Assembly: GCF_035083965.1 (NCBI RefSeq)
Contig: NC_089738.1
Location: 17,183,734 to 17,247,733 of the forward strand
DNA from: Branchiostoma lanceolatum
Taxonomy: Eukaryota > Chordata > Leptocardii > Amphioxiformes > Branchiostomatidae
Direction: 5' to 3'
DNA: 64,000 bases
Shown here: one piece after another, positions 3,541-54,789 of the stretch
Layout: every line of letters starts with the position of its first letter
How positions within the stretch are numbered: the first letter of the stretch is position 1
The notes under the pieces: generated by a model
What the model saw: only the letters and a program-made list of their open reading frames with translations
Database searches by the model: none
Told to the model about the DNA's origin: nothing
Translations under genes and position numbers: made by a program

Positions 3541-3670
3541 GTTGACAGACACATTTCTGCGTCTCACTGAGTAAACCACAACCCTTCTGCCCCGTTCTCG
3601 TTATTGATATACCTAGTCATACAATCCCTTACCTCAAATCACTTTGTTCAATCTAACATTGTTTAACGCA
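3541..3670 (+). other. 5'UTR part of the first coding exon of ROCO-A (acceptor at 3539-3540)
   Basis: A pyrimidine-rich acceptor (TTTTTGTTGCAG) ends at 3540 and is followed by 130 nt without ATG before the start codon at 3671. The sequence TGAGTAAACCACAACCCTT recurs in ROCO-B (TGAGTGTACCACAATCCTG, about 11968) and ROCO-C (TGAGTACATCACAAGCCTC, about 20620), each just after an AG acceptor. This shared arrangement supports a noncoding first exon upstream that I could not place. Confidence 0.55.
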
Positions 3671-6600
3671 ATGGAGTTTTTCAATCTTTTAGAAAACACA
3701 CTGGTGGTGATAGAACTCTATGGAGTGAATGTAGGATGGGCTCTGATGACATGTTTGTTGGCAACGGTTGTTTCTATCTTCCTCTACTGTTTGGTAAATA
3801 GGTTCCAAACTAGGCAGAGAGAAGAGGAAGATTCCTTACCTCAGCCAGCAGGTCAAGTAGATGAGGCTAGGGTTGAGGATAGATCTCTTGTTGAGGATGT
3901 ATCTTCTCAACAAGATGGGCATGATTCCTTAATACGTCCTTTCTGCAAGGAAGAAAACTGTGTTGACGACCACGAGTCAACTTTCCTTTTCGACCAAGAA
4001 AAACACGTTGATGTGGAACATATAACGCTTACACAAAGGCATGGAAACGAAGATCAGTGTCTTACCATCTTTGAGGAGATTAACCAATTCACGCGATTGA
4101 AAACTGTAACAATCATTGGATACAAACTGGATGATTCTAGTTTTATTAATCTATTCCGGTGTGTTACTATACGCTCTCTCAAATTGTCATATTGCCAACT
4201 GGCATCTATACCACAATCCCTGGTAAACCTGAAAGACCTTGCAGTTCTTGACCTAAGTCATAACAACCTGACAACTCTGCAAGCGGTACCTTTCCACTCA
4301 CTACCCTGTTTAAAGAGCCTCAACATAAGTCACAACAGCATACAAGTTCTTGCAAACGTAACGACACTCGCGTCTGTTAAAAACTTCGACGTGTCTTACA
4401 ACAATATTGAAGAGATTCCATACGAAATACTTGAAATGGAAAACTTAGAGGTTTTTTCATGCAATCACAACAAGATAGTCAGGTGGCTTCAGCCATCTAC
4501 TGGACCAAAGAGGGAAACTGAATCCTCTTTAGTATTTCTAAACCTATCTAACAACTTGCTTCATGAATTACCTTGGTGTGTAAAAGAGCTCCGCAACATA
4601 TCGGAACTCAACCTCTCCCATAACAAAATAGGAGAAAATGTGAGCGAAACGATGGAAACAGTGCAGCTTGCTGAGCTCTTCTACTTACCCCTGGTCTCAT
4701 CTTTGATGCTTGGAAACAACAATATCAAATCGTTGCCCTCGCTAGATATGTCGAGGGTTTCGCCAAACATGGAGTATATTGATCTCAGTAACAATGCGAT
4801 TAGTGTTGTGCCTGCAGCTCTGCTGCTATTGACAAGATTAAAAGTATTGTTATTGAGCAGTAACGAGATCGAAAAGCTTCCTGCGGATTTGGATCTAAAT
4901 GATCTCTCTCCAACTTTATGCGTTATCGATCTCAGTGACAATAAGTTAGATGATCTGCCCCTAGCTCTTTGCTTTCTTCGTTCGTTGAAGAAGTTGGACC
5001 TAAAACAAAACAAAATCAGTGTAATTAGTGAAAACGTCAAAAGTTGTAAGAGCCTAGCTTTTCTTGACGTGTCCCACAACAAGCTAAAGGAGATACCGTC
5101 TCATGTAATAGGACTTCCAAAGCTTGTAGAGATTCGTGCCTCAAACAACCAGATCAACTCGGTCAGCTCTTTGCAAAGAGATGAGTTGTCTATGATGGAA
5201 GTAGTCGCCTTAGCAGAGAATGGTCTTTCACATTTCCCAGTAGCTCTCATACAAATGGAAAAACTAAAAAAGGTCGACTTGAGAAGCAATGAAATAAAAG
5301 TCATTCCACAGTCTGTAATGGGCATGTCGAAAGATGTAAAGCTGAATGTACAAGACAACCCCCTCGTTGATCCCCCCTTACAGGTCTGTCAGGCAGGCCT
5401 TCCGGCCATAAAAGCTTTTTATGAAGACTTAACGACAGCCAGCAGTATCACACAGTGTCTCAAAACGCTGTTCTTGGGGACCTATGAGGCAGGGAAGACC
5501 AGTCTTGTCAGAGTGTTTCAAATGAACCGTTCTAGTCTGACTAAACCTGAGGAAAGAACACATGGCATAGAAATAGCTGAATTACATCTTTCAGCTCCTA
5601 ATACCCCAGATATCACATTATCTGTGTGGGACTTTGCAGGACAAGAAACATACTACATTACACATCAATTTTTCTTGAGCGCGAAGGCCCTCATGCTTTT
5701 GATTGTGAACCTGGAGACATATAAGTATGACTCAGACAGCTTTGAGTTAGCATGTGGCAAATGGTTGGAAAATATGATAGCTAGGGTGGGTAATCCAGTC
5801 GTTATCCCTGTAGCCACTCATATTGACAAACTCTCGCCAGCAGACGTACAACAAAGGTGTGAGGATTTGGCCAAGAAACTTGAGGATCAGGAAAGGACGC
5901 GTATCACTGATTTACAGAGACAGCTGAAACGTATCAATGACTCATTGATTCACGTCGAATCAATGAAATCAAAGAAAGCCGTCAGTGACAGAAAGAAACA
6001 AATTGAGACCCTTCTTTCAAAAAGGCCATCGATACATTCTAAACCTGTGCCTGTCAGCTCAGCTGCAGATCTTGAGGGCATCCAGTATCTAAAGCAAGTG
6101 ATCCTCAACTATGCTGTAAATAAAGAGTTATTTCCTGAAGTCGGTCGCTCCATTCCAAAGGCGTGGGCGGACACTGAAGCTTGTGTCGAGAGAAAGGCTG
6201 AAGAGCTAAGCTTCCCCTACATGACCTGGGACGCGTTTACAGCCTTAATGAAACAATCTGTTCCAAATTTGAGGCCTGAATCTCGCATCAAAACTGTTGC
6301 GCAGTATCTCCACGATACCGGCAAGATCCTGTGGTATTCAGAAATAGACTCCTTAAATAAACATGTATTTCTCAAGCCAGCTTCGCTTGTGGATATCTTC
6401 AGAAAGGTCTTCCGGCATGACCTTGAGACATTCCTTGATTACGAGTCTGATCCTCGGTACAGAGCAGCCGAGATCACTCCGGCTGAATTTCAGAAAATGA
6501 AAAACGACTTGGTCAATAGGGGAGTGCTACATACCAAACTGCTCAGGTGCCTGTGGTCAGATGTTGAAAAGAAATGTCGGTCAGGAACATTTGAACACAT

Positions 6601-8479
6601 TTCAGATGTGTTGATTAAACTGATGCAACAGTTTGATCTTTGTTATGACCTTTGCGTGCGTCATGATGATAGTGACAAAAAGCAGCAGGCCTTTGATGGG
6701 CCATTGTCGAAGAGAAGGCGTCTTATGCGACGGCTTGAAAAAGACGACCTAGAAGACAAACAAGAGTGCAACATTCCACGTGCACTTCTATCACCATGGC
6801 ACATAAAAGAAGACAAGGAAGACAAGATTGAGTGCCAGTGGAAATCTGGGGGGACTCCTATAGTTTCAATTCAGTATCAGTCTCCTTCTTTTATCCCTCC
6901 TGGCCTGTTTGCCCGCTTTACTGTGAGAGCACACCGCCCAGAGCATAACCTGCACTTTGTTTCGCATTGGAACACTGGTGCATTATGTAAACACAAGAGG
7001 AACAGGGTACTAGTTCTCCTAAAAAATGAGGGTACAAAAGGGATTGTGGTTTCACTCAGTGCTAGACCAGAGAGCGGGGGTGTACACGGTGACACCTTCG
7101 AGAATCTGTGGGACATACTGACGGAGTTAAGTTCAGAGGTCGAAGACCTTCTGAAGCAGTGGCCAGGTTTGTCTGACCTTTGTACCATCCTTTTCCTGAC
7201 ATTTGATAAGTCTAAAACTTTTGTAACGGTCTTGGATATTTAGCATGCTTTTGCTTGTGACGTATTGTATTCAAATCACACAGAACGGTACCAACCACAG
7301 CCAAATGGCTATTTGATTTCTGCATAATTCCATTGACAGGAATGAATCATTTAAAATATGCGGCATGATACATGTTTTCTGCTATAGGTGTCCTTTTCGA
7401 CCGCTTAGCTGTCTGTCCCGAGTGTCATCGGCCATCATTTCCTGGGAACTGGCTACCTTCAAGCTCCAGGAGACCAGACGAAGAAGAAATCTGCTCTCTC
7501 TGCAATAAAAGAGTCTCTGTGAAGTATCTGATACCACGGCAAAGAACGATGGCATACTTGGCCGTCGGCGGTGGTGAATATAGTTTTTCATTAATAAATG
7601 TATCTGTATCTATAGAGCCGGTATAACCGCCATTCGGCGTAACACACCAGCTTCGCAGGCACGCGGCGCGGAAGCAGCTGGTTATATTACACCGAACGGA
7701 CTGTTACACCTAGTCTTTGCATATCTGACTGCAACTGTTCTTTGAAGCTATTTAGTGAGGATGCTCCTACAGTACTTTATGACAACGTAACATTACATGT
7801 TATATGTAATGTCCATGTCGCTTTCGGGTATCTGTGAACCCAGCAATACCATTAAAGGGTATTCACGTTTCCGAAAGAAGAATCTAAAATGCGTATCAAG
7901 GATTAAAAAAAAACGGCTACCTTTGCTGCCCATATTATATCTAGGCCACGCGGTGTTTTCACATCCATGAATAGTTTGGTCATCACCGTATACATGGACA
8001 CAATATCATGTGACACTCTTCTATAACACTGACTACTTAGCTATGTAATGTCTTCATGTGGTAGTTTAACGTAGTACAATTTTATCTTCAATGCAGGACT
8101 AGGGGCAATAGCAGCATTTGCAGCAGCAGCAAGAGCAGCGTGGGATGTTGCTCCACCCTCACATTATGGATACCCTCATTACGCTCCCGAGCAACATTCT
8201 GCTGATCGTTACGTGTCAAAGTCATTATCCGACAGACAGCTTTTGCGCGTGGCTAAAAAGCTGGGAGTGGAGTGGGAAAGCCTCGCCGTCCACATGGGGT
8301 TCACCAAGGCAGACATGTACAAGTTCAAGAGTGACCACCCCCACAACACGGAACAACAGATCTTCATGATGCTGACGGCATGGAGAGACAGGTTGGGAAG
8401 TTCGGCGACGAGAGAGGAGTTACAGCGTGTTCTCGAGGAGGCAGAGGTTGACGACGACGCGACATTGTGTCTGTATTAG
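3671..8479 (+). CDS. ROCO-A: membrane-anchored LRR-Roc-COR-zinc module-Death domain protein
   Basis: Three coding exons: 3671-7166, 7388-7573, 8097-8479; 4065 nt, 1354 residues, phase 1 at both junctions. The start is the ATG at 3671; the open frame extends upstream only to a TTG. Residues ~17-42 form one hydrophobic segment followed by basic then acidic residues, giving a predicted membrane anchor. Residues ~130-590 are leucine-rich repeats (LxxLxLSxNxL type). Roc GTPase: P-loop GTYEAGKT at 603-610, DFAGQE at 654-659, THID at 716-719 in place of the usual TKxD. COR follows (~830-1150). Exon 2 carries CPECH (C1175, C1178, H1179) and CSLC (C1201, C1204). Exon 3 has an Ala-rich linker (~1228-1245) and a Death domain (~1271-1350). 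ROCO proteins couple GTP binding to dimer-dependent signalling; MFHAS1-like proteins are the closest vertebrate comparison. The Death domain suggests recruitment of apoptosis or NF-kB adaptors. Topology and function are inferred. The exon 2 donor (7574) is extended compared with B and C and is the least certain boundary. Confidence 0.88.
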
Positions 8480-8681
8480 GAGGAAAGTTCGTCCACGTGG
8501 GGTGTCGAAGATGAAGACTTTTACTGATGACATACCGATGAGTAAATCTGGTAAATCAGTGGTTAAACAGATAGCAAATCACCAACTTTTTGTCATGTGC
8601 AGAACCAGTCTAAGACTGTACAAGCCTCAGAGCGAAAGAGTTGCAAATAACTTCTATGATCTTATGAGGTTGTGATTGATA

Positions 8682-9085
8682 AGACATTCTGTATGCTGAG
8701 CATACCAGTTTAATGGTATCTTCTTTTATGAGTGCAGGATTTTACAGAAGTTTCATTGATCGATGCACTGACCATTGTCTGTTTTAGCTATCAAATAGCA
8801 TGTTTGTCTAAATATACATTATGTACATTTGTTTGTGTGTAGATAATACAAGAGAGCAGTTTGTATCCGGTACGGTAAAGACTGTGATCTGTCAGGCACT
8901 GTATGTTGAACATACCAGTTTTGTGGTATCCTCTTTCATTAGTGCTGTATTTGACAGAAGTTTCATCAATGCACCATTGTAAAGTTTCAGCTATCAAATA
9001 GCATGTATGTCTGACTATACAGTATGTACATTAACTGGTGTGTTAACAATACAAGAGTGCAGTTTGCATCTGGTAAGATTACATG
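8682..9085. repeat. Imperfect tandem duplication, ~210-bp unit, downstream of ROCO-A
   Basis: Two successive copies, about 8682-8881 and 8894-9085, share CATACCAGTTT, TTTCAT, AGCTATCAAATAGCATGT, TATGTACATT and CAGTTTG(T/C)ATC in order. They lie in the probable 3'UTR or flank of ROCO-A. No coding potential. Confidence 0.7.
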
Positions 9086-9354
9086 ACTGGACAATGTATA
9101 TAAACTGGTAACCTGAACACCCCTGTGTGTTGATAGCTTGTTATTTTAAACTGTACATATACATGCTGTAATTAAGAAATTGTCAATGAGCATGTTTGAA
9201 CATATAAGCAGGAAACAAAACCAATGTATGAAATCCTCCACTATTCTCCATGTAAAGCACAGCCCTGGATTTTCAACTTCCACAGGGCTAATGCCTAGCC
9301 TAGTTCACCAAACATGATTATTTGCATTTGCACACTTGAAGGACCAACATTAGC

Positions 9355-9425
9355 ACAGTTGACTTTGACTTTGACTTTATTGGGATCCACAATTAGCATA
9401 CAATGTGCAGCTATTCTTCCTGTGG
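9355..9425. repeat. (TTTGAC)n tract, probable LINE 3' tail
   Basis: A short hexamer run (TTGACTTTGACTTTGACTTT) is followed by ATTGGGATCC. Hexamer microsatellites next to a short AT-rich end are typical 3' tails of CR1/RTE-like LINE fragments, here on the minus strand. No reverse transcriptase remnant was recognised beside it, so the origin is inferred. Confidence 0.35.
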
Positions 9426-10435
9426 TCCTTATTACTCCTTAAACAAATACAAATACATATACACATAGATACAACATTACGCAAAATTGTCCCACACAAT
9501 ACATTAACAAAGGATAACTGGATAAAAAAGTTCACAGAAGAGAATCAAGTTCATGCATCAACTGTCCTGTTCCAGAGTTGTGACATACAGTTGTACATAT
9601 TGTGTCCCGTAGGGCCATACATTCAATATATACATTATAGAATGTGTCTGTTGTAATAAGAGTGTTAAGAACTATAAGAGGACCAGACAAAAATGTGCAT
9701 CAAGTGATTGAGAGAAAATTCGTCTGTGACAATGCCACCAGTATGCACTTGATACTTTCTGCGATGCTTGTAGAGTATATTGGCTTGTCGTCCTTTCATT
9801 TTGTTGGGATATCTCTTCTTACAAAGTACAGTTACTACAAAGTCATGTTAAATGAGATAGGTACAAAGAACCGCGCAATTGACATCTGGTGATACATATA
9901 CCATTGCTATAAGGAAAGGGACACTTGTCAATCATGGGTTAACCATAAAAAATAAACTTTGCATCAAATGCATAGTCTCCTTTATTATTGAATGGCAGAG
10001 CACAAAAATGTTACCTTGCTAACAACAAATGTGAATATGCATGTCTTTCATATATGCCTTGAATACGAATCACCATTTAGTGTACAGCTGTGTAGGTGTT
10101 GAAAAGCCCCAAAGCACTACAATATATTTGGAACGGGGAATTAGGCATTTTTGTTTTTACCATTAGCGGGTAGGTAGGGACACAAACTTAGGGCGTATGT
10201 GAGATGTTATGATAAACGACGACCGGGGTTTGACTTATTTCGGCCATGTATAGTCCAGGCCTCTTTGGCTCGTGGATGAAGTTGCAAAAGCGCCTGCTAC
10301 CATCACACCTATATATCATTGCGAATAGCGCTCGCTAGCTGGAAACCAGCACACAAAAATGAATGTGCACGGCATTAGCAAAATACTATGCATCAGGTCA
10401 ACAGTGTGGCATGCAGTCAATTTATTGGCATACAC
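9426..10435. other. Intergenic stretch, no gene recognised
   Basis: Part of the ROCO-A to ROCO-B interval. It is AT-rich with short random open frames; an AATAAA occurs around 9950. No domain or clear repeat seen. Confidence 0.4.
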
Positions 10436-11000
10436 TCGCACACAAACACAACGGGCTCCTGTTTTGGCCCAGGTTTCAGCTCCTAATAACCAGGCCGTCA
10501 AAACTGTTTGCTCAAGTTGTAGTGGCTTCAGTAATGAGAGGTTGAAAGGTAGGACTTTGGCCGTTAGTCAATGGCGGGCGAACTTTTCTTGTTTACCCAG
10601 AGTAAACGTACACTATTCTCGACATCCACCTTAATTTAATTAAGATCCCTTTTGAGTGCAAGACCGTTGGATGCAAAGCGGACTTAAAACAACCTTTACC
10701 TTAAAATAAGCATGTGTACATCATACAATACAAAAGCAGTGCAGGCCTGGGATGTTACAGAGAGAAATCTAGGTGCACCATGCCTTGGATCAGTCATACA
10801 TTCTACCAGCCATACTTTGCTCGGGGGGCATACAGCGTGCTCAGGTAAATAAGTTAAAAGACCAACACGCCATTCTGAGTGGTGCATATATACGATAATG
10901 GTTAAGGTTGTGTAATCATGTTATCACCCCATTGTATTGGGGACTTACCGTTACGTCACGTCCTGTTAACAGTTACAACAATATCAGTCCGCGCGCGTCA
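10436..11000 (+). repeat. Upstream-flank module of ROCO-B (copy 1 of 3)
   Basis: Homologous to 17640-18300 and 18715-19370. Shared landmarks in order: a CA-rich CACAAACA start, GGCCGTCAAAACTGTTTGC, GTCATGAG/GTAATGAG, GGACTTTGGCCGTTA, and near the end a conserved block (GTTACGTCACG...TTACAACA.TATCA.TCCGCG). It is followed about 1 kb later by the ROCO-B 5'UTR exon, so the duplication unit included upstream DNA. The conserved block near 10950-10995 is the best place to look for a shared regulatory site. Confidence 0.6.
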
Positions 11001-11654
11001 ACCTACATTTGGGTACACTGGCCGGATTAGCAATTAGCCACCTTTTTTTTCATCTGCAACGCCATCAGCAACAAGACACCATTTATTTATTTATTTATTA
11101 CACTTCTCCAAAACTGGAAGGCATGGCGGAACAGGTATTTCCTACAGAGTAATGACAGTAAGGTACCTTAATCGTATGGGATCAAAACTCGCACAGAAAT
11201 GCATGGAGATCAATACTACGAGTATATTCTCTACAATATCCTTCCGCACACCATAAGTCCCGTGATTTGAGGGGGAAAGTTTCGTACGTGGCACTGTTTG
11301 TTGGCGCGGAAAACGAAAGTTACTTTTACCAAAAGACAGGCCTGCAGGTTATGCCAAATCAACGAATCTGGTGTGCGTAAAACCATCCGGTAAGAACATC
11401 TTTTATGATATTTGTCGTCTATTCTCAGAAATACAATGAATGGAATCTGAGAATGTCGCACGATATGTTGCCAGACATTTTGATCTGTGGTATATTGGCT
11501 CTATGGAGCGTGGGCTGTGCTTATCGGTCAAACAATTAAGACGATATTCAGCTTATTTCATGCTGCAAATCTAACTATATGTTTTGTCTACTTCAAACGT
11601 TGACGTCCACTAATTCATCTCTTCAACCTTTGTCACGTCTCGTGGTTATGTTGA

Positions 11655-11820
11655 CCCAGTGTCAGCGCGAGGTAAATGTTTTGCCCAGACGACACAAGCC
11701 ATTCTGCTGTTGCCATCAACTTGATCAAACAAATGTACGAAGTCTAGCTGCCATCATGTTTGCTTTGCATTGATTCAGCCCACTTGGGGGCGTATCTACA
11801 GCTAATGCACATAATTGCAT
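11655..11820 (+). repeat. Proximal upstream module of ROCO-B, shared with ROCO-C (20005-20165)
   Basis: Both regions contain GCCA.TCTGCTGTTG, CAACTT..TCAAACAAA, GTACGAAGTCTA, CATG...TGATTCAG/TGAGTCCA and GG.G.GTATCTA in the same order. Each lies roughly 0.3-0.6 kb before the conserved 5'UTR acceptor. This is consistent with a promoter-proximal block copied with the genes. Confidence 0.5.
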
Positions 11821-11946
11821 CGCGTTTTTGAGCATATCATGTCACATTGTAAAATGTTGAATTCTTTGTGAGCTAAGTATATTTTCATACCTTCAAACTA
11901 ATCTGACATTTGCAAATAATCATCATGCATCTCTTTCGTATTACAG

Positions 11947-12047
11947 ATACAACATTTCGTCGTGTTGAGTGTACCACAATCCTGCCCTAACCCTCTTTCC
12001 TGATAATTTTTGTTTGTTTGATCTGCCAGCTCGCATATCTAAGTGGA
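11947..12047 (+). other. 5'UTR part of the first coding exon of ROCO-B (acceptor at 11945-11946)
   Basis: The acceptor CGTATTACAG ends at 11946 and is followed by the TGAGTGTACCACAATCCTG block shared with A and C. A second possible acceptor (TTTGATCTGCCAG) lies nearer the ATG at 12048, so the exact boundary is open. No upstream ATG lies between the acceptor and the start. Confidence 0.5.
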
Positions 12048-15000
12048 ATGTCTAGGTCTGTTCATTTAAAAGCACAGGAAAACCAAATTGAGTTCATGAT
12101 ATGCCTAGCTATTTTAGCAGCCGTTTTTGTTATATCAGCAGCCGTTCTTATATTTGTCATATATGAAATTGCGAAAGGGGTCGTTCACTGTCTTGCTTAC
12201 CTGTTTAAGAAATTCTTGAAGAAGCGCCCTGACAGCTCCCATGATGAATCCTCTCAACAGGACGGACAGGGTTCTCCTGTATGCTCCATCTGTAACATAC
12301 AAAGTTGTACTGAAGATCACGAGTCGACATTCCTTTTTGACCGAGGCCAATACGAAAAACACTGTAATGTAGAGCATATAAACCTCGCCCAGAAAGAAGG
12401 AAAAGGTCGTCCTCTTACGATTTTTAAGGAAATTAAGCAATTCAAGAAATTGAAAACTGTAGAAATTACTGGCGTAAAGTTGGATGATTCTTGCTTGTCC
12501 AATTTATTTCAGTGTACCTCTATTCACTCCCTGAAGTTGTCAAATTGCCAGCTTGTGTCTGTGCCTGGTTCTCTGGCCAATTTGAAAGACCTAGAAACTC
12601 TTGATCTTAGTCATAACTACCTGGTGGCTCTACCAGCCTCATCTATTCGTTCAATGCCTTGTCTGAAGACACTGAACATAAGCCACAACCACATACCGGT
12701 CATTGGTCAAGTTGTTAAGAAGTTTCGAAGTGTGCAGAATTTTGACATGTCTTACAATCTCGTTGAAGAGATTCCTTGTGAACTACTTGAAATGGAAAAA
12801 TTAAAGAGTCTGTCATGCAGCCACAACAAAATAACAAGATGGCTCGAACCATCCAATAGTACTAAACAGACCAGTGCAAGTTCTTTGAACTTCCTTGACC
12901 TTTCAAATAATAAGCTTAAAGAATTTCCTCAGTCAGTGAATAAACTGAAGAGCCTAACGGTGCTTAACCTCTCAAATAACGAGATAGGGGCCAATACAAA
13001 CCACAAAATATTACGTCAGCAACTTGCAGAGCTTTTCTACCTGCCCTTGATGTCTAAGTTACAGCTTGGGAACAACAACATCAAAACATTACCGTCACTG
13101 GACACGACGAAAATTTCACCAAACATGGAGTTGATTGATTTAAGCAACAATGAGATTTACGATGTGCCTTCAGCTTTTCTTTTATTTCCAAAACTGCAGT
13201 CATTATTGTTAGGTGACAACAATATAACAAATCTTCCAATGGACTTGGACCTAAAGAATCTATCTCCCTCATTAAGTGTTATCGATCTGAGTAACAATGA
13301 GCTGGTAAATCTGCCTCTAGCTATCTGCTTTCTTCCTTCATTGGAGAAGCTGGACATGAAACAAAACAAAATGAGAAAAATAAGCGAAAATATCAAACGT
13401 TGTAGTACTCTTTGTTTTCTTGACGTGTCTGCCAACAGGCTGAAAGAAATACCTTCTCATGTCCTCGGCCTCCCGAAGCTTGTAGAAATTCGTGCTTCAA
13501 ACAACCAGATCAGTTCTGTCAATTCTTTGCAAAAAGAAGAACCATCACTGGTAGAAATAATGATCTTAGCAGATAATGCCTTAGCAAATTTCCCGGAAGT
13601 TCTCATTCGGATGCCAAATTTAAGGGACGTTGATTTGAGTAACAACGAAATTAAGCTTATCCCACAGTCTATCAGACACATGCATGAGGATGTACGATTA
13701 AACCTACAAGACAACCCTATCGTCGACCCACCATTGGAAGTATGTCAGGCAGGCGTACAAGCCATAGGGGCATTTTATGAAGACTTAACAACGGCCAGCA
13801 GTATCACACAGTGTCTCAAAACACTGTTCTTGGGCACCTATGAAGCCGGGAAGACCAGTCTTATTCGAGCACTACAACTGAATCGGTCTAATCTGACCAG
13901 ACCGGAGGAACGAACACATGGTATAGAAATAGCTGAAATTAATCTTGAGGTCCCAAATACTCCTGATATCACATTATCTGTGTGGGACTTTGCTGGTCAG
14001 GAAACATATTACATAACTCATCAGTTCTTCTTAAGTTCGAAGGCCCTCATGCTTTTGATTGTGAATTTGGACAGCTATAATGCAGCCAGTTTTTATTCTA
14101 AATGTGGGTACTGGTTGGAAAATATGATTGCTAAGGTGGGGAACCCGGTAGTGATTCCTGTTGTTACTCACATCGATAAACTCTCTAAGAAAGAAGTAGA
14201 CCGTGCATGTAAAGATTTGAACAAGAAGCTAGAAGATCAAGAGAGAAAGCGTGTTAAAGATCTACAGAGGCAGCTTGAACGAATTGATGAAACATTGCTG
14301 GAATCAGAAGTTGTTATGAGGGAGAGAAAGAAACGAATTGAGGCTCTTCTTCAAAACAGGCCATCCATACATCCGAGACCCGTGCCTGTCAGCTCGAGTG
14401 AGTCACTCGAAGGTATTCAGTATTTGACGCAGGTGATCCTCAACTATGCTGTGAATAAAGAGTTTTTCCCCGAGGTCGGTCGTACTGTTCCAAAAGTTTG
14501 GGCGGACACTGAAGCCTGTGTCGAGAAAAAGGGTGAAGAGCTGAGCTTCCCCTACATGTCCTGGAGTGATTTTGCGTCGTACTTAACAACAAATGTTCCG
14601 AACTTGCAGCCTGAATCTCGCACCAAAACTGTTGCGCAATATCTTCACGATACAGGCAAGATTCTGTGGTACTCGGAAATAGAGACCTTAAGGAAGCATG
14701 TGTTTCTCAAGCCAGCTTCGCTTGTAGATATCTTCAGGAAGGTTATTCGGTACGACATCAAGAAATCTGTTGATTACGAGTCAAACCCTTGCTTCAGAGA
14801 GGCAGAAATAACGCGGGCTGACTTTGACACAATGAAAAATGACTTGGTCAGGAATGGAATACTGGATACAAAATTGCTAAGATGTTTGTGGTCAGATGTC
14901 GTAAAGGAATGTCGCTCGGGAACATTCGAGGATATCTTTCGCGTATTGATTGAACTGATGAGACAGTTCGATCTTTGTTATGACCTGCACCAAGAAAGTC

Positions 15001-16979
15001 ATTCCATACACGAGGACAAAAAGCAGCACCCCATTTCAAAACTTCTGTTACCTTGGTACATAAAGGACGACCTGGGAGACAAGGCTGAGAGGCAATGGGG
15101 GAAAGGAGTGGATCCTATCATTTCGCTTCAGTATCAGTTTCCATCTTTCATCCCTCCTGGTCTGTTTGCCCGCCTCACTGTAAGGGCACACGGCCCAAAA
15201 CATCACCTGCACTTTGCTTTGCACTGGAGTAGTGGCACATTATGTAAACACAAAACGAAAAGTACACTGGTGCTTTTGAAGAATGAGGGTGTGGGAAGGC
15301 TTGTGGTTTCACTCAGTGCCCGACCAGAGAGCAAGAACGTTCACCGTGATAGGGCGATTGAAGACCTTTGGAATACGCTGCAAGAGTTGAGTTTGGAAGT
15401 TGAGGAACTCCTGAAGCAGTGGCCAGGTGAGGGCTTCTCCCCCTACGCTTCAAAATATACCGGTATCTATATCATTTCGGACGAAAAGTGTTACATCTTT
15501 CCAACCCCCTTATACCAGTTAGTTTCTTCAAAATGAAACTGGAATATAGTAACTGTAGCGCAAACAAGACCTACAATTTATTTGTTGCGAATGTCTTCTT
15601 TGGCGAAGCCTTGTAGGCGAGCCTAATGGTATATATATAGTATTGTGTACAGTCTACAATAATTCTAGATATCTTTGGACCAGTCAATGTACATATGGAT
15701 CATACATGTTGATATAGATACATATATCAATATTGGACGGCATTGTTGGCAACACTCAGATTACAAGTTTAGAACCTTTATGACTAGACTGCAGGAAAGA
15801 AAATATTCATGACAGGAACATCCTGTCAACAGTGAAAAATCTTCTTGATGTGTGTTCTTATGTGTGTTTACCGCTATTCAGAGACCATCGTCGCCTTGGC
15901 AATACTAGTTTTCTTGCCAGTCTTGTTAAACCTGAAAATGACATGGCTTGATGTTTCCTGCCACAGGTGTTCGGTTTGACCGGTTTGCTGTCTGTCCAAA
16001 GTGCCACAAACCAGCATTTCCCGGGGAATGGCTACACCGGACTTGCAGGGGGTCAGAGGAACGAGAGATCTGCTATTTCTGCAGCGAGAGGGTTCCTCTC
16101 AAATGTCTAGTACCACCAGCGCTTGTGTTAGATCGATATACTCTTACAGGTGGGTGCACTGTTTTATGACAGTACACGTTAAGATAATTTGTGGTTAAAA
16201 ACCGGCTGCTCGACAGATCTTACTTAGTGTCACTGACGAAAGGTAGTGGGTAATCTCCAAGCAGATCCAACGGTTGCAAAGACCGAAACCAACTGGCAGT
16301 TTTTATTGCAACCGGTTGCAATGATAATTCCTCTGCCAGTTGGATACGGTCTTTGCAACCGTTGGATCTGCTTGGAGACTAGGTAGTCGGTACTACCTGA
16401 AATGTCTAACCGTTTCCAAAATCATATACAGTCGCTTGCGCAATTGCTTTTTTTAATAGTATTAGAGAGAGAGAGATGAAGAGAGAGAGAGGAAGACGGG
16501 TGGAGATATTGAGAGAGAGGGGGGTAGAGAGAGGGTATAAAGAGAAAGGGCCAAGAGAGAGAGAGAGAGAGAGAGTATATGTGTAAATGTGTGCGTGTGT
16601 ATGTGAGCGAGAGAGATAGTACAGTGTGAATATATTGTCATATTTGACATTTTTAAGGGTTATGGATTGATAGTTACTGCCTCTTTTCCTCTGTTTAGGA
16701 ACAGCTGATCTGCCCAGGACCGATCGTCAGCGACTCTCCGACCGACAGCTTTTGCAAGTCGCTAAAACGTTGGGTGCAGAGTGGGAAGAACTCGCCATCC
16801 TCATGGACTTCACTCAAGCAGACGTGTACAAGTTCAAAAGTGACAATCTCGGCAACACTCAGGGACAGATCTTTACAATGTTGAGAACATGGAGAGACCG
16901 AGAGGGAAGTAAACCAACCAGGGGAAACTTGCAGCGAATTTTCAAGGAGGCAGGACTTCACTGTGACACGATAGCATAA
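12048..16979 (+). CDS. ROCO-B: membrane-anchored LRR-Roc-COR-zinc module-Death domain protein
   Basis: Coding exons 12048-15426, 15967-16149, 16699-16979; 3843 nt, 1280 residues, phase 1 at both junctions. The start is the ATG at 12048 (the frame extends upstream only to a TTG). A strongly hydrophobic segment at ~16-40 is followed by an amphipathic stretch and a basic cluster (KKFLKKR), a predicted membrane anchor with the rest cytosolic. LRRs span ~130-580. Roc has GTYEAGKT at 596-603, then DFAGQE and THID. COR carries the VAQYLHDTGKILWYSE and VFLKPASLVDIFRKV motifs. Exon 2 has CPKCH (C1136, C1139, H1140) and CYFC (C1162, C1165). Exon 3 holds the Death domain (~1198-1278) and ends directly after it. 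Roc and COR are much more alike between A and B than the N-terminal ~110 residues are. Intron 2 contains a palindromic MITE and a (GA)n tract. Function by analogy with other ROCO and Death-domain proteins is inference. Confidence 0.9.
16241..16387. repeat. Palindromic MITE in ROCO-B intron 2
   Basis: Two 31-bp perfectly complementary arms (CTCCAAGCAGATCC... and its reverse complement ...GGATCTGCTTGGAG) plus an inner pair (CCAACTGGCAG/CTGCCAGTTGG) surround a central CAACCGGTTG. The whole folds into one long hairpin of about 133 bp. AGGTAGT occurs on both sides (16241-16247 and 16381-16387), a possible target-site duplication. Confidence 0.75.
16463..16618. repeat. (GA)n-rich low-complexity tract
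   Basis: Interrupted GAGAGA runs followed by a GTGTGC/GTGTGT stretch, between the palindromic MITE and the Death-domain exon of ROCO-B. Microsatellite, non-coding. Confidence 0.85.
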
Positions 16980-17639
16980 CCCCGAAATTGGGAAGTAATC
17001 GATTGATAACTACCGTTAGATATTTATCTCATTCTTATAAGCAATGTCAATATAACCCAAGAAGGAACAATCACTAGGGAAACGTTGTACCTTTGTTTGT
17101 CTTGACGACACATGCAAACCACTGGCTGGTTGAGGTACTGTCAAGAAATTTGATGTTGACAATATTGTACAATGTTGGCGCAAGCTTATAGAGTAATGCT
17201 ACAGCAATCGTATCCCTTGTAACTCGGAAACATTGAAAGAAAAGCAGCTTATGCCCTGATGGACATTTTCTGTCTTGATACATGCTAGAATAGTATTCAG
17301 TACATATGATTATATTGGTAATGGTAATTACGGTTTCTGCCTCATGTCGCTCAATGTATTTTGCTTTAATTTGAAAGGAGGGCATAGATGAATATTGTTA
17401 CTTTGCATATAGTTTCTCAGACTACGCATGTATATAGGCGGCTTTATGTACTCACTACAAGAAATAAATAACATCAAATTCCTCTCTCAATTTTTCGTTG
17501 TCAGATTGTATATGGAACATCTTACCTAAGTTTATCTAAAGATCAGTTATGTGTTTTTCGATGCAGTAAACTAAAATCTAAGGACTTTATTTGATGGCAA
17601 CGTCGCATGTTAGTATGGTGGCAAAGGCACGCAATCCAA
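16980..17639. other. ROCO-B 3' flank, no gene recognised
   Basis: Follows the ROCO-B stop. AAATAAATAAC around 17461 could supply a poly(A) signal. No domain or repeat recognised. Confidence 0.4.
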
Positions 17640-18305
17640 CTTTGATAGACAAACAGCACAGGTTGCCCCCGGTGTCAAGCCGTGCAAACCATGCCGTCAA
17701 AAACATTTGCACAAGAGGCAACGGACGCATTTTGGTCATGAGACGTACGCTGAAAGTTGGTTGTCAGTCAACAGTGAGGGGAACGCTTTGATAATCAGAG
17801 GAAACGCATAGATTTAAGGCATTCGTCACATAAATCCCATAATATCCGCCATGGCCCATCCTTAGAGTGCACGACTGTTGAATGGGAAGAGGTCTTAAAT
17901 AGATCTTAATCTTAAAGGAAGTATTTATGGCAGGTGTATAAAAAGATGATAGCATAGGTAAAATTGCATTTGTTTTATCTATCGGAAATCGGATCAATCA
18001 TACTATCAGCGACACAATGACTCTCAACGGGCATCCAGTGAGAGTCAAGTGAAACACTTAGAAGAACATGGCATTGCTAATTGTCGTATTTACCACAGTG
18101 GACAAGATTGTGTGATTACGTTATTTACGCAGTGCAGCTTAAGGACTTATTTCTTTGTCACGAACGTGTTAACATCTACAACAGTATCATTCCGCGTTAA
18201 ACTGTGGTAATAAAGCCCGAGCAAGCCACAACAAACTCGACATCTCTGACGCATCAAAAACATTACACCTTTCTATTTCTTCAACATATCATTGAACAGT
18301 TAAAA
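17640..18305 (+). repeat. Upstream-flank module of a lost ROCO copy (copy 2 of 3)
   Basis: Aligns by eye with 10436-11000 and 18715-19370: CCATGCCGTCAAAAACATTTGC, GGTCATGAGACG, then CTTTGTCACGAACGTGTTAAC and ACAACAGTATCATTCCGCG. Its distal part (ACGCATCAAAAAC...ATCATTGAACAG) also matches the copy before ROCO-C. Instead of a gene body it runs, within ~70 bp, into sequence like ROCO-B intron 2 and a Death-domain exon. Confidence 0.6.
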
Positions 18306-18369
18306 AGTATGTTACATATATTGTGAGGGCATATAAGTTTATTGCTTTTATTATCACATGTACAGTTGT

Positions 18370-18702
18370 TAGTGGCCATGGTTTGATAGTTACTTCCTCA
18401 TTTCCTCTGTTTAGTGGGACCTGATTCGTCAAGGACCGATCGTCAGCGACTATCCGAACTACAGCTTTTGCAAGTCACTAAAACGTTGGGTGCAGAGTGG
18501 GAAGACCTCGCCATCTTCATGGACTTCACTCAAGCAGACGTGTAAAAGTTCAAGTCTGACAATCCCAGCAACGCTCAGAGACAGGTGTCTACAATGTTGA
18601 GAACATGGAATTGGAAAGATAGAGAGGGAAGTGAAGCAACAAGGGTAAACTTGAAGCGTATTTCTCGAGAGGCAGGACTCGACTGTGACGCGATATTATG
18701 AC
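18370..18702 (+). pseudogene. Orphan, broken Death-domain exon of a deleted ROCO copy
   Basis: Closely matches exon 3 of ROCO-B plus the end of its intron (TTTGATAGTTACTTCCTC...TTTCCTCTGTTTAG). Reading the ROCO-B frame gives an LQLLQVTKTLGAEWEDLAIF-like start, but GACGTGTAA at about 18537-18545 puts a stop where B has a tyrosine codon. The first base after the acceptor AG also differs from B, and 6 extra bases are inserted near 18606. No LRR-Roc exon and no CxxCH exon lies between it and the flank module at 17640-18305. It is best read as the 3' remnant of a fourth tandem gene whose body was deleted. Confidence 0.85.
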
Positions 18703-18714
18703 TGATAAGGCTTG

Positions 18715-19370
18715 ACAAACAAACAAATAAACACGACGTGCCCTTCGTCTGTCCCAGTAACCATGCCAATATTTGCTTAGGTTGCAACGGCTTTAGTCAT
18801 GAGACTTTGGCCGTTAATCAACAGCAGCGGTATTTTGTTTGCTTAATCCGAGGAAACACGCAATATCTATGACAATAGCCAAGTAATGTATCTTAAAGTC
18901 TGTCAAGTAAACCTCAATGTACACTACTGATGGATGATAAGTTGCCTCAATTCATGCAATATTTACATTAACGTATTGTTTCTGATTACTGTTACGCTTA
19001 AAGAAAAATGAAGATGTCACAGATGAAATTGTATAGGAAATCGGATCAATCACATTATCAACCACGCATCGGATCTCAATGGGCATCCAACGTGATCATG
19101 TCAAGGACTTCACAACAACAATATGTATATTTGCTGAGTGGCATATACAAACATGTACGGTACTGGCCAAGATTGTTTGTTTTCATTATTCACTTAGAGT
19201 AGCTTTGCAGGTACTTACCACTACGTCACGAACCTAGTAACTTTTACAACAGGATCACTCCGCGTTGATCATGAGCTATGACAAGGCACAATGTACTCTT
19301 CAATTCTAACGCATCAGAAACTATACACCGCGGCCGTTTCTCCCTTCCCACCCGGGTATGATCAAACAGA
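18715..19370 (+). repeat. Upstream-flank module of ROCO-C (copy 3 of 3)
   Basis: Shares with copies 1 and 2 the landmarks GTCATGAGACTTTGGCCGTTA, CTACGTCACGAACCTAGTAAC and ACAACAGGATCACTCCGCG, then CTAACGCATCAGAAAC and GATCAAACAG. It starts directly after the pseudogene exon. The intervening unit length is consistent with tandem duplication of gene plus upstream flank. Confidence 0.6.
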
Positions 19371-20004
19371 TAGAATGTATGTACCATGAATTGTTCGGTC
19401 ATTTCTGCGTAAAAGTTCACAGAAATGGAACTCATTTGGACAAACAGTATACATACGCGCCGTCGCACCTTTATAGAAAGACTCGTGATCTAGGAAAGCG
19501 CATACGTGGCACTGCTGAAGGCGAGGAAAAGGTTGGTCCTGCCGGAAGATATCCCAAAAGCAACGGTACTGACGCGCCCATTACTACATGGTGAGACCAA
19601 CAGAGTAATCGTTGTCACTATTTGTGGGTAGACGGAGAGCTGAATCAGATAATCTAATTGGCTAAACGTCCATGGTCGACAGGAAGAGACTGCGGTCAAG
19701 TTCAAAATTTTTGGATAAAAGAAAGGAATCAATCAATTGTACTGTAGTCGCCAAACCTTTATTCCAGTAATTGAAAAAAATAGAGACTGATTTTTCAATG
19801 ACAGATATCGGTAAAACCACATAGAATAGCCCTGGCGTCAAATTAGAGATGTATCGTTCTTAAGCTTCTATCTCTGATTTTCAGCGTCGAATTTCTTCAG
19901 TGCTTTCTTAAAAGCACACAAAATTACTTTTCGATTTAAGCTTTTTGTAATGCTTGAATATTACGGTCAAAAAAACATAGTCTTTTCCTATGTTTTCTTA
20001 TGTT

Positions 20005-20165
20005 TTTATACAGCGTCAGGGTGTGGTTAACTTTAGCCAAGATCACACAGGCCAATCTGCTGTTGACGCCAACTTAGTCAAACAAAGGTACGAAGTCTAT
20101 CAACGTTTTCTAGCATGAATTGAGTCCATTTGGAGGCTTATCTATTGTTGATTCTGAGTTGATTA
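20005..20165 (+). repeat. Proximal upstream module of ROCO-C, shared with ROCO-B (11655-11820)
   Basis: See the partner region: GCCAATCTGCTGTTG, TAGTCAAACAAAGGTACG, AAGTCTA and GGAGGCTTATCTA follow in the same order. It lies about 0.45-0.6 kb before the 5'UTR acceptor of ROCO-C. Confidence 0.5.
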
Positions 20166-20603
20166 TTACTATGAAACACAAGCAGTTACTAAGGAGTATC
20201 AACCTCCAGGTTGTTAGACATTCTATGCTTTAATCTAGTCATTGTCATATCAGACCCAATGTGTAAAGAGGTAGATAGTATTGACCATAGTCGCATTACA
20301 GTATTAACTAATTACAAGATTATATATGCTTCTAGCACTGTGTTCATTTTCTGTAATCATTTTCGTTTCCCTCACGCTAAAAAAGATAGCTTAAAAAGAT
20401 TTACAATCATCTTCATCATCACGATTCAAAACGATTAGCAGTATGACTCTTATTGTGCCAGTAGGCACATTACATTGCAGTCATTTGCAGATATTCTGTT
20501 CGCCATCATCAGTCAAGTGTAGCCTCTAAAATCCGTATGTTAAAACACGTTTAAACTAATATGCCATCTGCTATATGTATTTACTCATTTTCTTCTATTG
20601 CAG

Positions 20604-20733
20604 ATACTACTTTGGCCTAATTGAGTACATCACAAGCCTCTTTCCCCCATTTTGTGCTTGATTTTCCAACTGTTACAGCTCATTTCAATAACCTTTAAAA
20701 GGCACATTCAGATCAAAGCACTGTTTGAGTGCA
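20604..20733 (+). other. 5'UTR part of the first coding exon of ROCO-C (acceptor at 20602-20603)
   Basis: The acceptor TTTTCTTCTATTGCAG ends at 20603. The 130 nt to the ATG at 20734 contain the TGAGTACATCACAAGCCTC block shared with A and B and no earlier ATG. The length equals that of ROCO-A. Confidence 0.55.
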
Positions 20734-23700
20734 ATGGCTAATATTCTGGATAGTACATTGGCGACCATACAAGGTCATGGAGGGTATGCAAATTGGGGTT
20801 TCTTTGTGCTTTTAATTTTGGTAGCCTTTTGCCTCATATACATTTATACGTGTGTGTCATGTAATGGCGCTAACGAAGAAGATGAGGTTGCTAACAAGGA
20901 CATACCTCTTCAACAGACCAGGCAGGGCTCATCGACAGTCCATATTGAGAAGGAACAAGACAAAGAACAGCCTAATGAAGAACGTACCAATCATGACCGC
21001 CAGGGCAAAAAACGTTGTGATAAAGACCCCAAGTTGACATTCCTTTTCAATCGACACCAATATACCGAGCATTCTAATCGAGAGGAAATAAGAATCACAC
21101 GCAAGCATACCGGAAATCGTTGTCTCACGATATTTCCGGAGATAGGTCAATTCAAACAACTGAAAAAAGTTGAGATTTTGGACACAAAACTGGATGATGA
21201 TAGCTTGCTAAATCTATTCCAGTGCACTTCCATTCGATCTCTCACATTATCAGAGTGTCACATCGAGTCTGTTCCTATTTCGCTGGTAAAACTGAAAGAC
21301 CTCGAAAATCTTGACTTGTCTGACAATAAAATTGAAGAGATTCCACCCGAGATTCTAGAAATGAAAAACTTGAAGACTTTGGTTTGTAGACACAACAAGA
21401 TCAAAACATTGCCACAACTAAACATGACAAAGGTTTCGAAAACAATAGAGAAAATTGACCTTTGTGACAATGAGATTTGTGAGGTGCCTGCAGCTTTCTT
21501 GATGATGCCAACTTTAAAAGCATTGTATCTTGACAGTAACAAGATCACAACATTTTCAACAGGTTGGGATCCAAACAAACTGTCTACAACTTTACTTGAC
21601 ATTGATTTGCGTAACAATGAACTAGATCATATACCACAGGTTCTTTGCCTTCTTCCTTCGTTGACGACGCTGGTCCTTAAGAAAAACAAAATCGGCACGA
21701 TAAGTAAAGACGTCAAAAGCTGTAAGAAGCTTGAATTACTTAACATATCTGCCAACATGTTGAAGGAACTACCCTCTCATTTATTTTGCCTCCCAAAACT
21801 TATAATGATCGACGCCTCAAACAACCAGATCACTTCTGTCAGCGCGCTGCGAAAGGGCGATTCTTCTGTGGTTGCAGTAATCTTCCTAGTAGAGAATGGA
21901 CTTTCGGATTTCCCAGAAGCTCTCATCGATATGGAAACATTAAGAAATGTCGACTTAAGTAACAATGAAATAAAAGTTATCCCACAGACTATCATGGCCA
22001 TGACTAAAGATGTAACACTAAAGCTGCAAGACAACCCCATCATTGACCCTCCCTTACAGGTGTGTCAAGGGGGTATACAGGCCATACAAGCATTCTACGA
22101 AGACTTAACCAAGGATAGCCCTATCTTAAAGTGTCTCAAAACACTGATCTTAGGGACCTATGGGGCAGGAAAGACTAGCCTCGTTAGAGCGTTAAAACTG
22201 GGACGCTCTAAACTAACTAAACCTGGGGAAAGAACACATGGTATAGAAATAGCTGAATTTCCTCTTTCAGCTCCTGATACCCCTGATAGAATGTTATCTG
22301 TGTGGGACTTTGCTGGTCAGGATATATATTACATAACTCACCAATTCTTCTTAAGCGCGAAGGCGCTCATGCTCCTAGTGGTAAATCTGGAGGAATATAA
22401 ATGTGACTCAGTTAGTTTTAATGGCAAATGTGGAAAATGGATGAAAAATATGGTAGCTAAAGTAGGGAACCCAGTCGTCATACCTGTTGCTACTCATATT
22501 GATAAACTATCGATTCATGGAGAAGTACAACGTAGGTGTGACGATCTGGCTAAGAGGCTTGAAGATCAAGAGAGAATTCGTCTAAAGGATCTAGAGAGAC
22601 AGCGTGAGAGTATTAATGAACCATCAATGAAATCAAGTGGAGCTGCTAGAGCTAGAAAGAAACAAATCGAGTCTCTCCTTCAACAAAGGCCATCAATACA
22701 CCCTAAACCCGTGCCTGTCAGCTCAGCTAATCTCAATGGCATCCAGGATCTAAAGCAAGTGATCCTCGACTATGCTACGAATAAAACGTTGTTCCCTGGG
22801 GTCGGCCACCCCATTCCAAAAGCGTGGGCGGACACTGAAGCTTGTGTGGAAAGAAAGAGTAAAGATTTGAGCTTCCCCTACATCACTTGGAGAGAGTTCA
22901 CTGCTTTACTGAAAAAAAATGTCCCAAATCTTCAACCTGAATCTCGTATCAAAACAGTGGCCCAATATCTCCATGATACCGGCAAGATCCTTTGGTATTC
23001 AGAAATTGAGTCCTTGAAAAACCATGTGTTTCTCAAGCCAGCGTCTCTTGTAGATATATTCAGGAAAGTTATTCGACCTGACCTTGAAGCATTCATTGAT
23101 TACAATAAGGACCCTTGCTACAAAGAGGTCGGGATAACCCAGGCTGACTTTGACAGAATGAAAAGTGACTTGGTCAATAGGGGAGTACTACACATCAAGC
23201 TGTTAAGGTGCATGTGGTCAGATGTCGAAAAGGAATGTTCCTTGGGCGAGACCATTTTCAATGTGCTCATTAAACTGATGCTGCAGTTTGAGCTTTGTTA
23301 TGACATTGACGACGGTCGCACTAGGGATAACCAGGGGCATCCTGTTCCTCGTAGACTTTTGGTACCATGGCATATACAAGACGATGTAGGAGACATAACA
23401 AAATGGGAATCGCCAAGGGGTCCTATCATTTCGATTCAGTACCAGTTTCCATCTTTCATTCCTCCTGGTCTGTTTGCCCGCTTTACTGTAAGAGCACACC
23501 ATCCAAAAAGCAAACTGCACTTTTATTCGCATTGGAACACCGGCACATTGTGTAAGCACAAGAAGCATAAGATACTGGTACTTTTAAAAAATGAGAGTGG
23601 GGAAATGGGCGTGGAGGGCAGTGAGGAAAGGCTTGTGATTTCACTCAGTGCAAGATCAGAGAGCAAGAGCAAGAGCACTTCTGTGGCTCTGTGGGAGACA

Positions 23701-25667
23701 CTGATAGACTTAAGTTTGGAGATGGACGAACTTCTGAAACAGTGGCCAGGTATGTCCTTTGTAATATTTCAACTTACAAGCATTGACGGTCTACATATTT
23801 GAGACATTTGGCTCAAGACAAAATAATCCATTAATGACCCGCCCAACTTGTCCACATGATACAAATGTGATATATGCACATAATATATTTTTTTATCGGC
23901 GATTAATGCCATATCTGACTGTGACATCTCATCTAGCCTGTGGCTTGTTGTTTCCATCCACAGGTGTCCAGTACAAACAGTATGTTGTCTGCCCTAACTG
24001 CCACAAGCCATCATTCGCTGGGCTGCAGAAGAGGGCTTCCAGTCGGTCAAGATCAGTGATCTGTTATAAGTGCAATGAAAGGGTCCCTAAGAATCTTCTG
24101 TCACCAAGCCAGCGGACATCAAGTAAGAAACATATTCTCAAACTAACATGCAATACATAATACAGTACTGATTAAATCAGTCTGCAGTACAGATGTGCAC
24201 AATGACTGTGACTTTGTAATGTTATGAAATAGCAATGTGATGATTTTTTAAAGCTGTAGGTTGCAATTCAAAATATGTACACTTGTGTACAGTCGTGCAA
24301 TTGTTTTATGAATGCTACTAAACCCTCAATATTGTCTGTACATTTTGTGGTACGGGATAGCATCTCATAGCAGCGAATTACTTGCCATCCTTTCCATCTT
24401 GTAAAGCAAATTCAAACAAACAAAAGTCTTTATTTAAAAACAGATTACTTGAAATCTTGTTTAATATCGATACTATAGTAGATTATGTTAAGTACCACAC
24501 AAAATCTAGACCTGGCAACATGTTTCAGTAGTCTTTCAACCACTGATTTTAACAGGATAATAGTGCTTTAACGTGCATACGTCGACGACACCAAAATACA
24601 ACACTTTCTTATTATCTGAAATAGGAGTAGCATCACTCAAGGAATATAAACCATTCTTCCATGGATCCAGCTCTTTATTCTTATCTGATTTTCTCACCAG
24701 GTGATTACATTAATCAGTGACTAATGCCCACTCATGACGTCATGATGAACACGGCAGCCGGTTCGGAACCTTACACCACGGCTTGTGAAAAAATTATTTG
24801 ATGAGCATACAGTGTTTGATTATCGTAATAACATTCAATCAAAGGATACAACAATATCCATTTTGTTTGCTTGTAAAAATAACGTTCTTTCCGAGCCGCA
24901 GTGCAAAGTTCCAAATCCGCTGCCATGTTCATTGTGACGTCATGAATGGCAAGTCACTGATTAATGTAATTACCTGGTGGGAAGAATCAAAAGTTGGAGG
25001 TATAATGTTTTGATGGTTCGATGTTCAATAAGATCCGAAGTGTGAATAATTTATGAAAATTTCTATGTTATTTAACAATGATATTATATGGTTTACGTAA
25101 TTTCAGGAAATTCTTAATCTTGATGTCATTGGCGTCTTATGCACTTAAATTCAAACGGGACGCAACTGACTTGAATATTTTTTTCACCTCTGACATTCTA
25201 CTGTTACGTCGATTACTCCATTGACTTCTGGGGCACAACTTATCATTGTACAATCTCTGGTCATAGGCAGATTACTCAGCAGCACCTCTGCAGTGGACAC
25301 GAGCAGCATCTACCTGTCAGACAAGTCACAACCATCTGACCAACAGCTTTTGCGAGTGGCTAGAGGGTTGGGAGCGGAGTGGGAAAGTCTCGCCATCCGC
25401 ATGGGCTTCACCAAGGCAGACGTGGACGAGTTCAAGAGTGATCACCCCCACAATACACGACAACAGAAGTTCACAATGCTGACAGCATGGAGACGCCGGT
25501 TGGGAAGTGAAGCGTCGACAAGGAGGTTACAGTGTGTTCTCCAAAGTGCAGGAGTTGACTATGACGCGATATCATGTCTGGATGAGACAGACATTTCGTT
25601 TGATTTGGGTAACGAAACATCTGACGATGATGCTACGTCATCTGATGATGAAGAAGTATTTTTCTAG
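20734..25667 (+). CDS. ROCO-C: shorter membrane-anchored LRR-Roc-COR-zinc module-Death domain protein
   Basis: Coding exons 20734-23749, 23964-24122, 25267-25667; 3576 nt, 1191 residues, phase 1 at both junctions. The start is the ATG at 20734. A hydrophobic segment at ~21-42 is followed by an acidic-polar stretch (GANEEDE). The LRR block is about 129 residues shorter than in ROCO-A because of two in-register deletions of ~46 and ~83 residues. Roc: GTYGAGKT at 474-481, DFAGQD, THID. The COR motifs VAQYLHDTGKILWYSE and VFLKPASLVDIFRKV are intact. Exon 2: CPNCH (C1015, C1018, H1019) and CYKC (C1039, C1042). Exon 3: Ser-rich linker, Death domain (~1080-1163), then a C-terminal acidic tail (DDDATSSDDEEVFF) absent from A and B. 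Intron 2 carries an imperfect foldback. All GTPase motifs are intact, so the gene looks functional despite the shorter sensor. Confidence 0.9.
24688..24987. repeat. Imperfect foldback element in ROCO-C intron 2
   Basis: CACCAGGTGATTACATTAAT at 24695 is complementary to ATTAATGTAATTACCTGGTG ending at 24979, with CAGTGACT/AGTCACTG and CATGACGTCA/TGACGTCATG continuing the arms. About 300 bp, non-coding, probably an old MITE. Confidence 0.65.

Positions 25668-49297: not shown

Positions 49298-49377
<80 letters not shown>

Positions 49378-49524: not shown

Positions 49525-49562
<38 letters not shown>

Positions 49563-54734: not shown

Positions 54735-54789
<55 letters not shown>

Follow-up and report, generated by a model that had tools for sequence, protein, structure and literature searches.

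What could a protein do that joins a Roc GTPase to a Death domain in one chain and begins with a hydrophobic helix? This question is raised by three neighbouring genes on the plus strand of a 64,000-nucleotide stretch of the lancelet Branchiostoma lanceolatum (contig NC_089738.1, positions 17,183,734 to 17,247,733; hereafter the window), which lie at positions 3671-8479, 12048-16979 and 20734-25667 of the window (genes 1, 2 and 3) and are each predicted to have three coding exons. The predicted joined proteins, of 1354, 1280 and 1191 residues, have one domain order in common: an N-terminal hydrophobic helix, leucine-rich repeats (LRRs), Roc, COR-A, COR-B and a C-terminal Death domain. We infer that a GTP-gated, membrane-tethered platform is the most likely reading of this architecture, and we tentatively propose, with a confidence somewhat short of even, a membrane-tethered cytosolic LRR-GTPase switch that would present a CRADD-type Death domain as the seed of Death-domain assemblies.

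The core of each protein is carried by a long first exon (gene 1, 3671..7166; gene 2, 12048..15426; gene 3, 20734..23749; all on the plus strand), underlain by a long open stretch (3617-7243, 11991-15536 and 20692-23802, respectively) and encoding the predicted anchor (residues 24-43, 16-39 and 21-41), 16, 17 and 12 LRRs by a simple pattern count, Roc, COR-A and most of COR-B. Exon 1 of all three genes matches Pfam LRR families, Roc (E-values of 1.8e-17, 1.3e-17 and 6.4e-15), COR-A and COR-B, and the nucleotide-binding motifs GTY(E/G)AGKT, DFAGQ and THID are unbroken throughout, in agreement with the LRR-Roc-COR core and intact Roc motifs claimed in a preliminary description of this DNA. Membership of the ROCO family is defined by Roc followed by COR; in the joined proteins of genes 1 and 3, Roc, COR-A and COR-B all exceed their curated cut-offs, while in gene 2 Roc and COR-A do so and COR-B reaches 38.9 bits, against a cut-off of 27, on the joined C-terminal piece. 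Gene 3 lacks two LRR blocks relative to the other copies. TIR and NACHT domains were not matched in exon 1 of the three genes (Pfam, E up to 0.1) or in full proteins 1 and 3 (E up to 0.001), nor were kinase or ankyrin domains in the exon 1 frames of the three genes or in joined proteins 1 and 3.

Solved structures matched by the gene 3 query include prokaryotic Rocos with the same LRR/Roc-COR core (PDB 6hlu, 4wnr and 3dpu) from Chlorobium and Methanosarcina, which are not known to have an anchor or a Death domain. No MFHAS1 chain is among the PDB matches listed for this query. Within Roc, the distance from G4 to G5 is 73-78 residues, and a charged, probably helical insertion lies between these motifs (gene 1, residues 716-797; gene 2, 707-783; gene 3, 587-664). 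Between two aligned blocks, the Roc of gene 3 has about 35 more residues than that of LRRK2. An AlphaFold model of exon 1, made from three sequences (mean pLDDT 47.4, confident in the LRRs only), places helices in the gene 1 insertion at low confidence.

The exon 1-2-3 splicing of the three genes is a prediction from sequence, in which the joined models stay open and all six introns are GT-AG and in phase 1, as would be expected if three adjacent tandem genes each give one polypeptide, the arrangement originally described; by eye, the donor of the second intron of gene 1 (GTGAAT) looks weak. A further line of evidence comes from exon 2 (gene 1, 7388..7573; gene 2, 15967..16149; gene 3, 23964..24122; plus strand), which carries a CPxCH...CxxC motif in each gene (CPECH...CSLC, CPKCH...CYFC and CPNCH...CYKC). 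On the unjoined exon 1 frames COR-B scores 28.0, 25.9 and 28.7 bits in genes 1, 2 and 3, the value for gene 2 falling under the cut-off. Joining the exons raises the score to 41.1 bits in gene 1 (profile positions 3-110 of 145) and 47.8 bits in gene 3 (positions 3-140), and the C-terminal piece of gene 2 reaches its 38.9 bits with exons 2 and 3 (positions 3-120) versus 30.0 bits without them (positions 3-66). When the start of COR-B was left off, a shorter gene 2 piece no longer matched this family, even with exon 2, and exon 2 alone reached no Pfam family's curated cut-off in any of the three genes, that of gene 3 touching COR-B positions 90-142 at 12.5 bits. Since exon joining raises the COR-B score in all three genes, the CxxCH...CxxC stretch is the C-terminal part of COR-B, and the same rise supports the exon 1-2 splice independently of the splice-site letters. 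The motif is therefore present in every gene as first described, whereas its interpretation as a separate zinc module is rejected, given joined COR-B matches that extend into it in all three.

Exon 3 of each gene (gene 1, 8097..8479; gene 2, 16699..16979; gene 3, 25267..25667; plus strand) contains the stop codon and encodes a Death domain with a Pfam match (E-values of 1.5e-12, 1.1e-10 and 2e-12) and a six-helix fold, preceded by a linker in gene 1 and accompanied by an acidic tail in gene 3. The interval 3671-25667 given in the preliminary description runs from the first codon of gene 1 to the stop of gene 3. The C-terminal Death domain of that description is thus retained, and can be refined by sequence to a CRADD/RAIDD-like type. 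In a search of solved structures, the joint profile of the three Death domains matched CRADD at 3.1e-17, followed by ankyrin-3 (3e-9), RIPK1 (1.3e-7) and PIDD (9.7e-6); CRADD was also the best solved-structure sequence match for each domain singly, at 31-40% identity (E-values of 6.9e-17 for gene 1 and 5.2e-10 for gene 2). The RAIDD interface residues G128 and R170 are preserved in all three proteins, and in vitro the R170C and R170H changes abolish or strongly reduce PIDD binding (PMC6169973; this and the other articles given by PMC number are represented here by excerpts).

What the Death domain might do depends on what accompanies it. The proteins differ from CRADD/RAIDD in having no N-terminal CARD and in the fusion of Death to LRR-Roc-COR and a predicted anchor, and neither a CARD nor a caspase domain was matched by Pfam in joined proteins 1 and 3 (E up to 0.001) or in the exons of gene 2. 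Together with the preserved interface residues, this would suit a decoy or brake, in which a CRADD-type Death domain without a CARD holds PIDD-like partners at the membrane and blocks caspase activation until the GTPase switch releases them; Death-domain receptors, however, likewise lack a CARD and yet activate, and we consider such a brake unlikely. PIDD1 also combines LRRs with a C-terminal Death domain in one protein, as reflected in the name of its PDB chain, leucine-rich repeat and death domain-containing protein. In PIDD1, ZU5 and UPA stand between the LRRs and Death; here Roc-COR takes that place, no ZU5 or UPA match was obtained for joined proteins 1 and 3, and the PIDD Death domain is a weaker match than that of CRADD. 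It is conceivable, if distinctly improbable, that the lancelet proteins are membrane-bound, GTP-gated PIDDosome-like activators, in which a single polypeptide, with its LRR sensor and ROCO switch, would replace the PIDD1-CRADD pair, and the N-terminus and number of LRRs would adapt each tandem version to a different input or membrane.

The proposed tethering rests on the N-terminus, where the strongest hydrophobic 19-residue stretch of each protein is located (Kyte-Doolittle means of 2.42, 3.16 and 2.80 in genes 1, 2 and 3), in line with the hydrophobic segment noted at the outset. When the first 100 residues were shuffled, the anchor score was reached in 28, 0 and 0 of 10000 trials; whole-protein shuffling reached it in 16, 0 and 0 of 300. 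Identities between pairs over the first 100 residues are 28, 24 and 5%, yet all three remain hydrophobic, which argues that the helix is preserved though the sequence is not. This helix is predicted to be a membrane anchor, possibly in the plasma membrane, the endoplasmic reticulum (ER) or the outer mitochondrial membrane. For gene 1 the counts of basic/acidic residues are 0/3 before the helix and 3/4 after it; for gene 2 they are 2/2 and 2/1, and for gene 3 0/1 and 1/5. Since Roc and Death are domains of the cytosol, a protein that spans the membrane once would probably have its LRRs there as well.

Whether the start codons are correctly placed bears directly on this anchor. Upstream of each ATG, at a distance of 101-130 bases, there is an acceptor-like site, picked by eye, which would delimit a putative 5' untranslated part of exon 1 on the plus strand (gene 1, 3541..3670; gene 2, 11947..12047; gene 3, 20604..20733) with three, one and two in-frame stops before the ATG, respectively. 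Because in-frame stops precede the ATG in all three genes, an N-terminal extension is disfavoured if the acceptor-like site is used. A 5' untranslated exon common to the three genes was considered, the acceptor-like sites being alike by eye, and was rejected: the upstream region of gene 1 has no blastn similarity to those of genes 2 and 3, which have four short blastn matches in common. The same lack of similarity, and a second acceptor-like CAG near the gene 2 ATG, by eye downstream of the in-frame stop, would be compatible with an N-terminus that is no real anchor, the protein being soluble or truly starting in another exon and amounting to a cytosolic MFHAS1-like ROCO with a Death domain. 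Against this stand the in-frame stops between acceptor-like site and ATG and a helix preserved at low sequence identity, each in all three genes, and we regard this possibility as very unlikely.

A different picture would place the anchor on an organelle. A housekeeping scaffold with its helix in the ER or outer mitochondrial membrane, whose GTPase would act in trafficking or stress signalling rather than immunity, is in keeping with several features: no glycosylation sequon occurs within the first 130 residues of any of the three proteins, a basic stretch follows the helix of gene 2, and the LRRs of gene 3, the only copy queried, resemble the repeats of LRRD1 and SHOC-2. Purifying selection points the same way. 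In simple Nei-Gojobori counts for the three pairs, with domain borders of our choosing and high synonymous divergence, dN/dS is 0.15-0.34 for LRR, Roc, COR-A and COR-B (0.17-0.34 for the LRRs alone), which indicates that, at the level of sequence, LRR, Roc and COR are under purifying selection. Constraint is weaker in the exon with CxxCH...CxxC (0.23-0.58) and in the Death domain (0.28-0.57) than in this core; for the N-terminus and linker, five of six pairs have reached saturation. Tandem copies with differing LRR numbers and a CRADD-like Death domain would nevertheless suit signalling better, and an organelle scaffold seems to us somewhat unlikely.

Diversifying selection at the domain level was considered and set aside, given dN/dS of 0.15-0.58 in the measurable domains. 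Because the LRRs are under purifying selection, a fast arms race of ligand recognition would not fit the LRRs as a whole, a statement that concerns three distant copies at the domain level only. The immune-type family suggested in the preliminary description is supported in part: the tandem copies and divergent N-termini (5-28% identity) are present, but fast, immune-type evolution of the sensor gains no support (LRR dN/dS of 0.17-0.34), nor do the NF-kB output named in that description and orthology to MFHAS1. The duplications are old: at the protein level the long exon of gene 1 is 65% identical to that of gene 2 and 61% to that of gene 3, and the longest DNA matches among the three genes are 71-75% identical. 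No further LRR-Roc-COR copy was found in the window (tblastn, E 0.01). In a scan of genome contigs with the exon 1 alignment, 141 stretches matched and none proved a relative by tblastn; two short LRR patterns were used, so this result says little about prokaryotic ROCOs.

How, then, might the membrane-tethered switch operate? Each protein would be a single-pass, N-terminally anchored molecule with LRRs, Roc-COR and Death all in the cytosol, built around an LRR-Roc-COR switch of the MFHAS1 or bacterial Roco type. When the LRRs detect a signal or partner, or when the nucleotide on Roc changes, the LRR-Roc-COR arrangement would shift, and the altered arrangement would free or cluster the C-terminal CRADD/RAIDD-type Death domain at the membrane. 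There it could nucleate assemblies with PIDD-like, CRADD-like or other partners and lead to caspase or inflammatory signalling. This proposal is drawn from three published observations put together: MASL1/MFHAS1 binds GTP and forms complexes in a GTP-dependent manner (PMC3995007), the bacterial CtRoco undergoes a large GTP-induced movement and opening with the LRR-Roc linker as its hinge (PMC11052575), and MFHAS1 is first inhibitory and later stimulatory in TLR2/NF-kB signalling (PMC4658032). Furthermore, an amphioxus CRADD homologue co-localises with a caspase-1/2 whose prodomain has a DED and Death (PMC3196919), and partners of the right kind for such a putative output therefore exist in lancelets.

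Several observations weigh against the proposed switch. In the same amphioxus work, cells transfected with the CRADD-co-localising caspase-1/2 showed no apoptosis (PMC3196919). The AlphaFold model of exon 1 is, outside the LRRs, too poor to reveal any switch. Two RAIDD core residues are changed in all three Death domains (F164 to L and V135 to A); gene 3 additionally has D in place of Y146, and in gene 2 the HPH of HPHN is missing. Comparison of folds by itself does not tell CRADD apart from several other Death domains: RAIDD has the highest Z, but RIPK1, ankyrins, FADD and TRADD tie with it at a Z difference within 1. The anchor is least distinct in gene 1, with its 16 of 300 whole-protein shuffles and further hydrophobic stretches in an LRR (mean 2.08) and in the linker before Death (1.71), and the flanking charges favour an N-out/C-in orientation in gene 1 only. 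Finally, the first AATAAA downstream of gene 1 lies about 1.5 kb past the stop codon.

Comparison with known systems indicates which part of this architecture may be new. By published description, MFHAS1/MASL1 has the same LRR-Roc-COR order and no kinase, and no membrane anchor is mentioned in the excerpts (PMC3995007, PMC6320773); it is described as lacking a clear effector domain such as Death (PMC3995007), which is present in all three proteins here. DAPK1, likened again by description, shares Roc-COR and a C-terminal Death domain (PMC6337361, PMC6320773), but has a kinase and ankyrin repeats and no LRRs (PMC6320773), in contrast to the many LRRs of the present proteins, which have no kinase or ankyrin match. 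In the excerpted reviews, ROCO groupings place Death in the DAPK1 group only, without LRRs (PMC6337361, PMC6320773). Trichoplax has at least 17 ROCOs, in which Roc-COR is surrounded by domains including LRRs, CARD and Death, with no N-terminal anchor mentioned in the excerpt (PMC4104024). In Aplysia, ROC and COR occur in putative Toll-like receptors and a MyD88-like protein and have been read as possible GTPase-linked immune signalling, the Toll-like proteins differing in that TIR is their output domain (PMC9334734). Given these Trichoplax and Aplysia proteins, neither a Death-bearing ROCO nor a ROCO linked to receptor immunity is new. An N-terminally anchored LRR-Roc-COR-Death protein, or these genes, found no description in the openly licensed literature searched, which is partial in coverage, and the main text of an amphioxus domain-shuffling paper has no word beginning with 'roc' (PMC2575513); public databases may already contain lancelet proteins predicted to be of this kind. 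Within that literature, the novel part would be the combination, in tandem copies, of a predicted membrane anchor with an MFHAS1-like core joined directly to a CRADD-type Death domain. If the proposed switch is correct, these genes would offer a direct test of how the Roc GTPase cycle drives a defined output, a question still open for LRRK2 (PMC11052575), and an instance, separate from the NACHT and NB-ARC families, of nucleotide-gated initiation of Death-domain assemblies.

Between genes 2 and 3 lies an orphan fourth Death exon (18349-18695, plus strand), which is 82.8% identical in DNA to 16633-16973 of gene 2, acceptor region included, and is broken by an in-frame stop; we suggest that it is either an alternative exon that is no longer functional or what is left of a fourth gene. 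The wider neighbourhood was surveyed through ten open frames picked by eye for Pfam, seven of which matched at E up to 0.01. Upstream, 712-1110 (plus strand) is an exon of a gene of the major royal jelly protein/Yellow family (Pfam MRJP, E 4.7e-13); lancelets are unusual among chordates in having such genes. Downstream, a UDP-glucose:glycoprotein glucosyltransferase gene spans about 45669-56304 (plus strand), with exons matching Thioredoxin_15, UDP-g_GGTase and Glyco_transf_24, and perhaps begins at 35562, where a weaker Thioredoxin_14 match (35562-35753) falls under its cut-off. Overlapping this match, three head-to-tail 104-base copies (35673-35985, 95% matches) represent a possible exon triplication or assembly artefact within the glucosyltransferase gene. 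The segment 37259-38107 contains a 127-base unit repeated in tandem about 6.8 times (76% matches), with a consensus containing TTATGCATAAATTATG; this repeat is perhaps satellite or mobile-element-derived. At 28790-29271, a 210-base unit is repeated in tandem about 2.3 times (92% matches) and overlaps a minus-strand open frame of 182 codons at 28613-29161.

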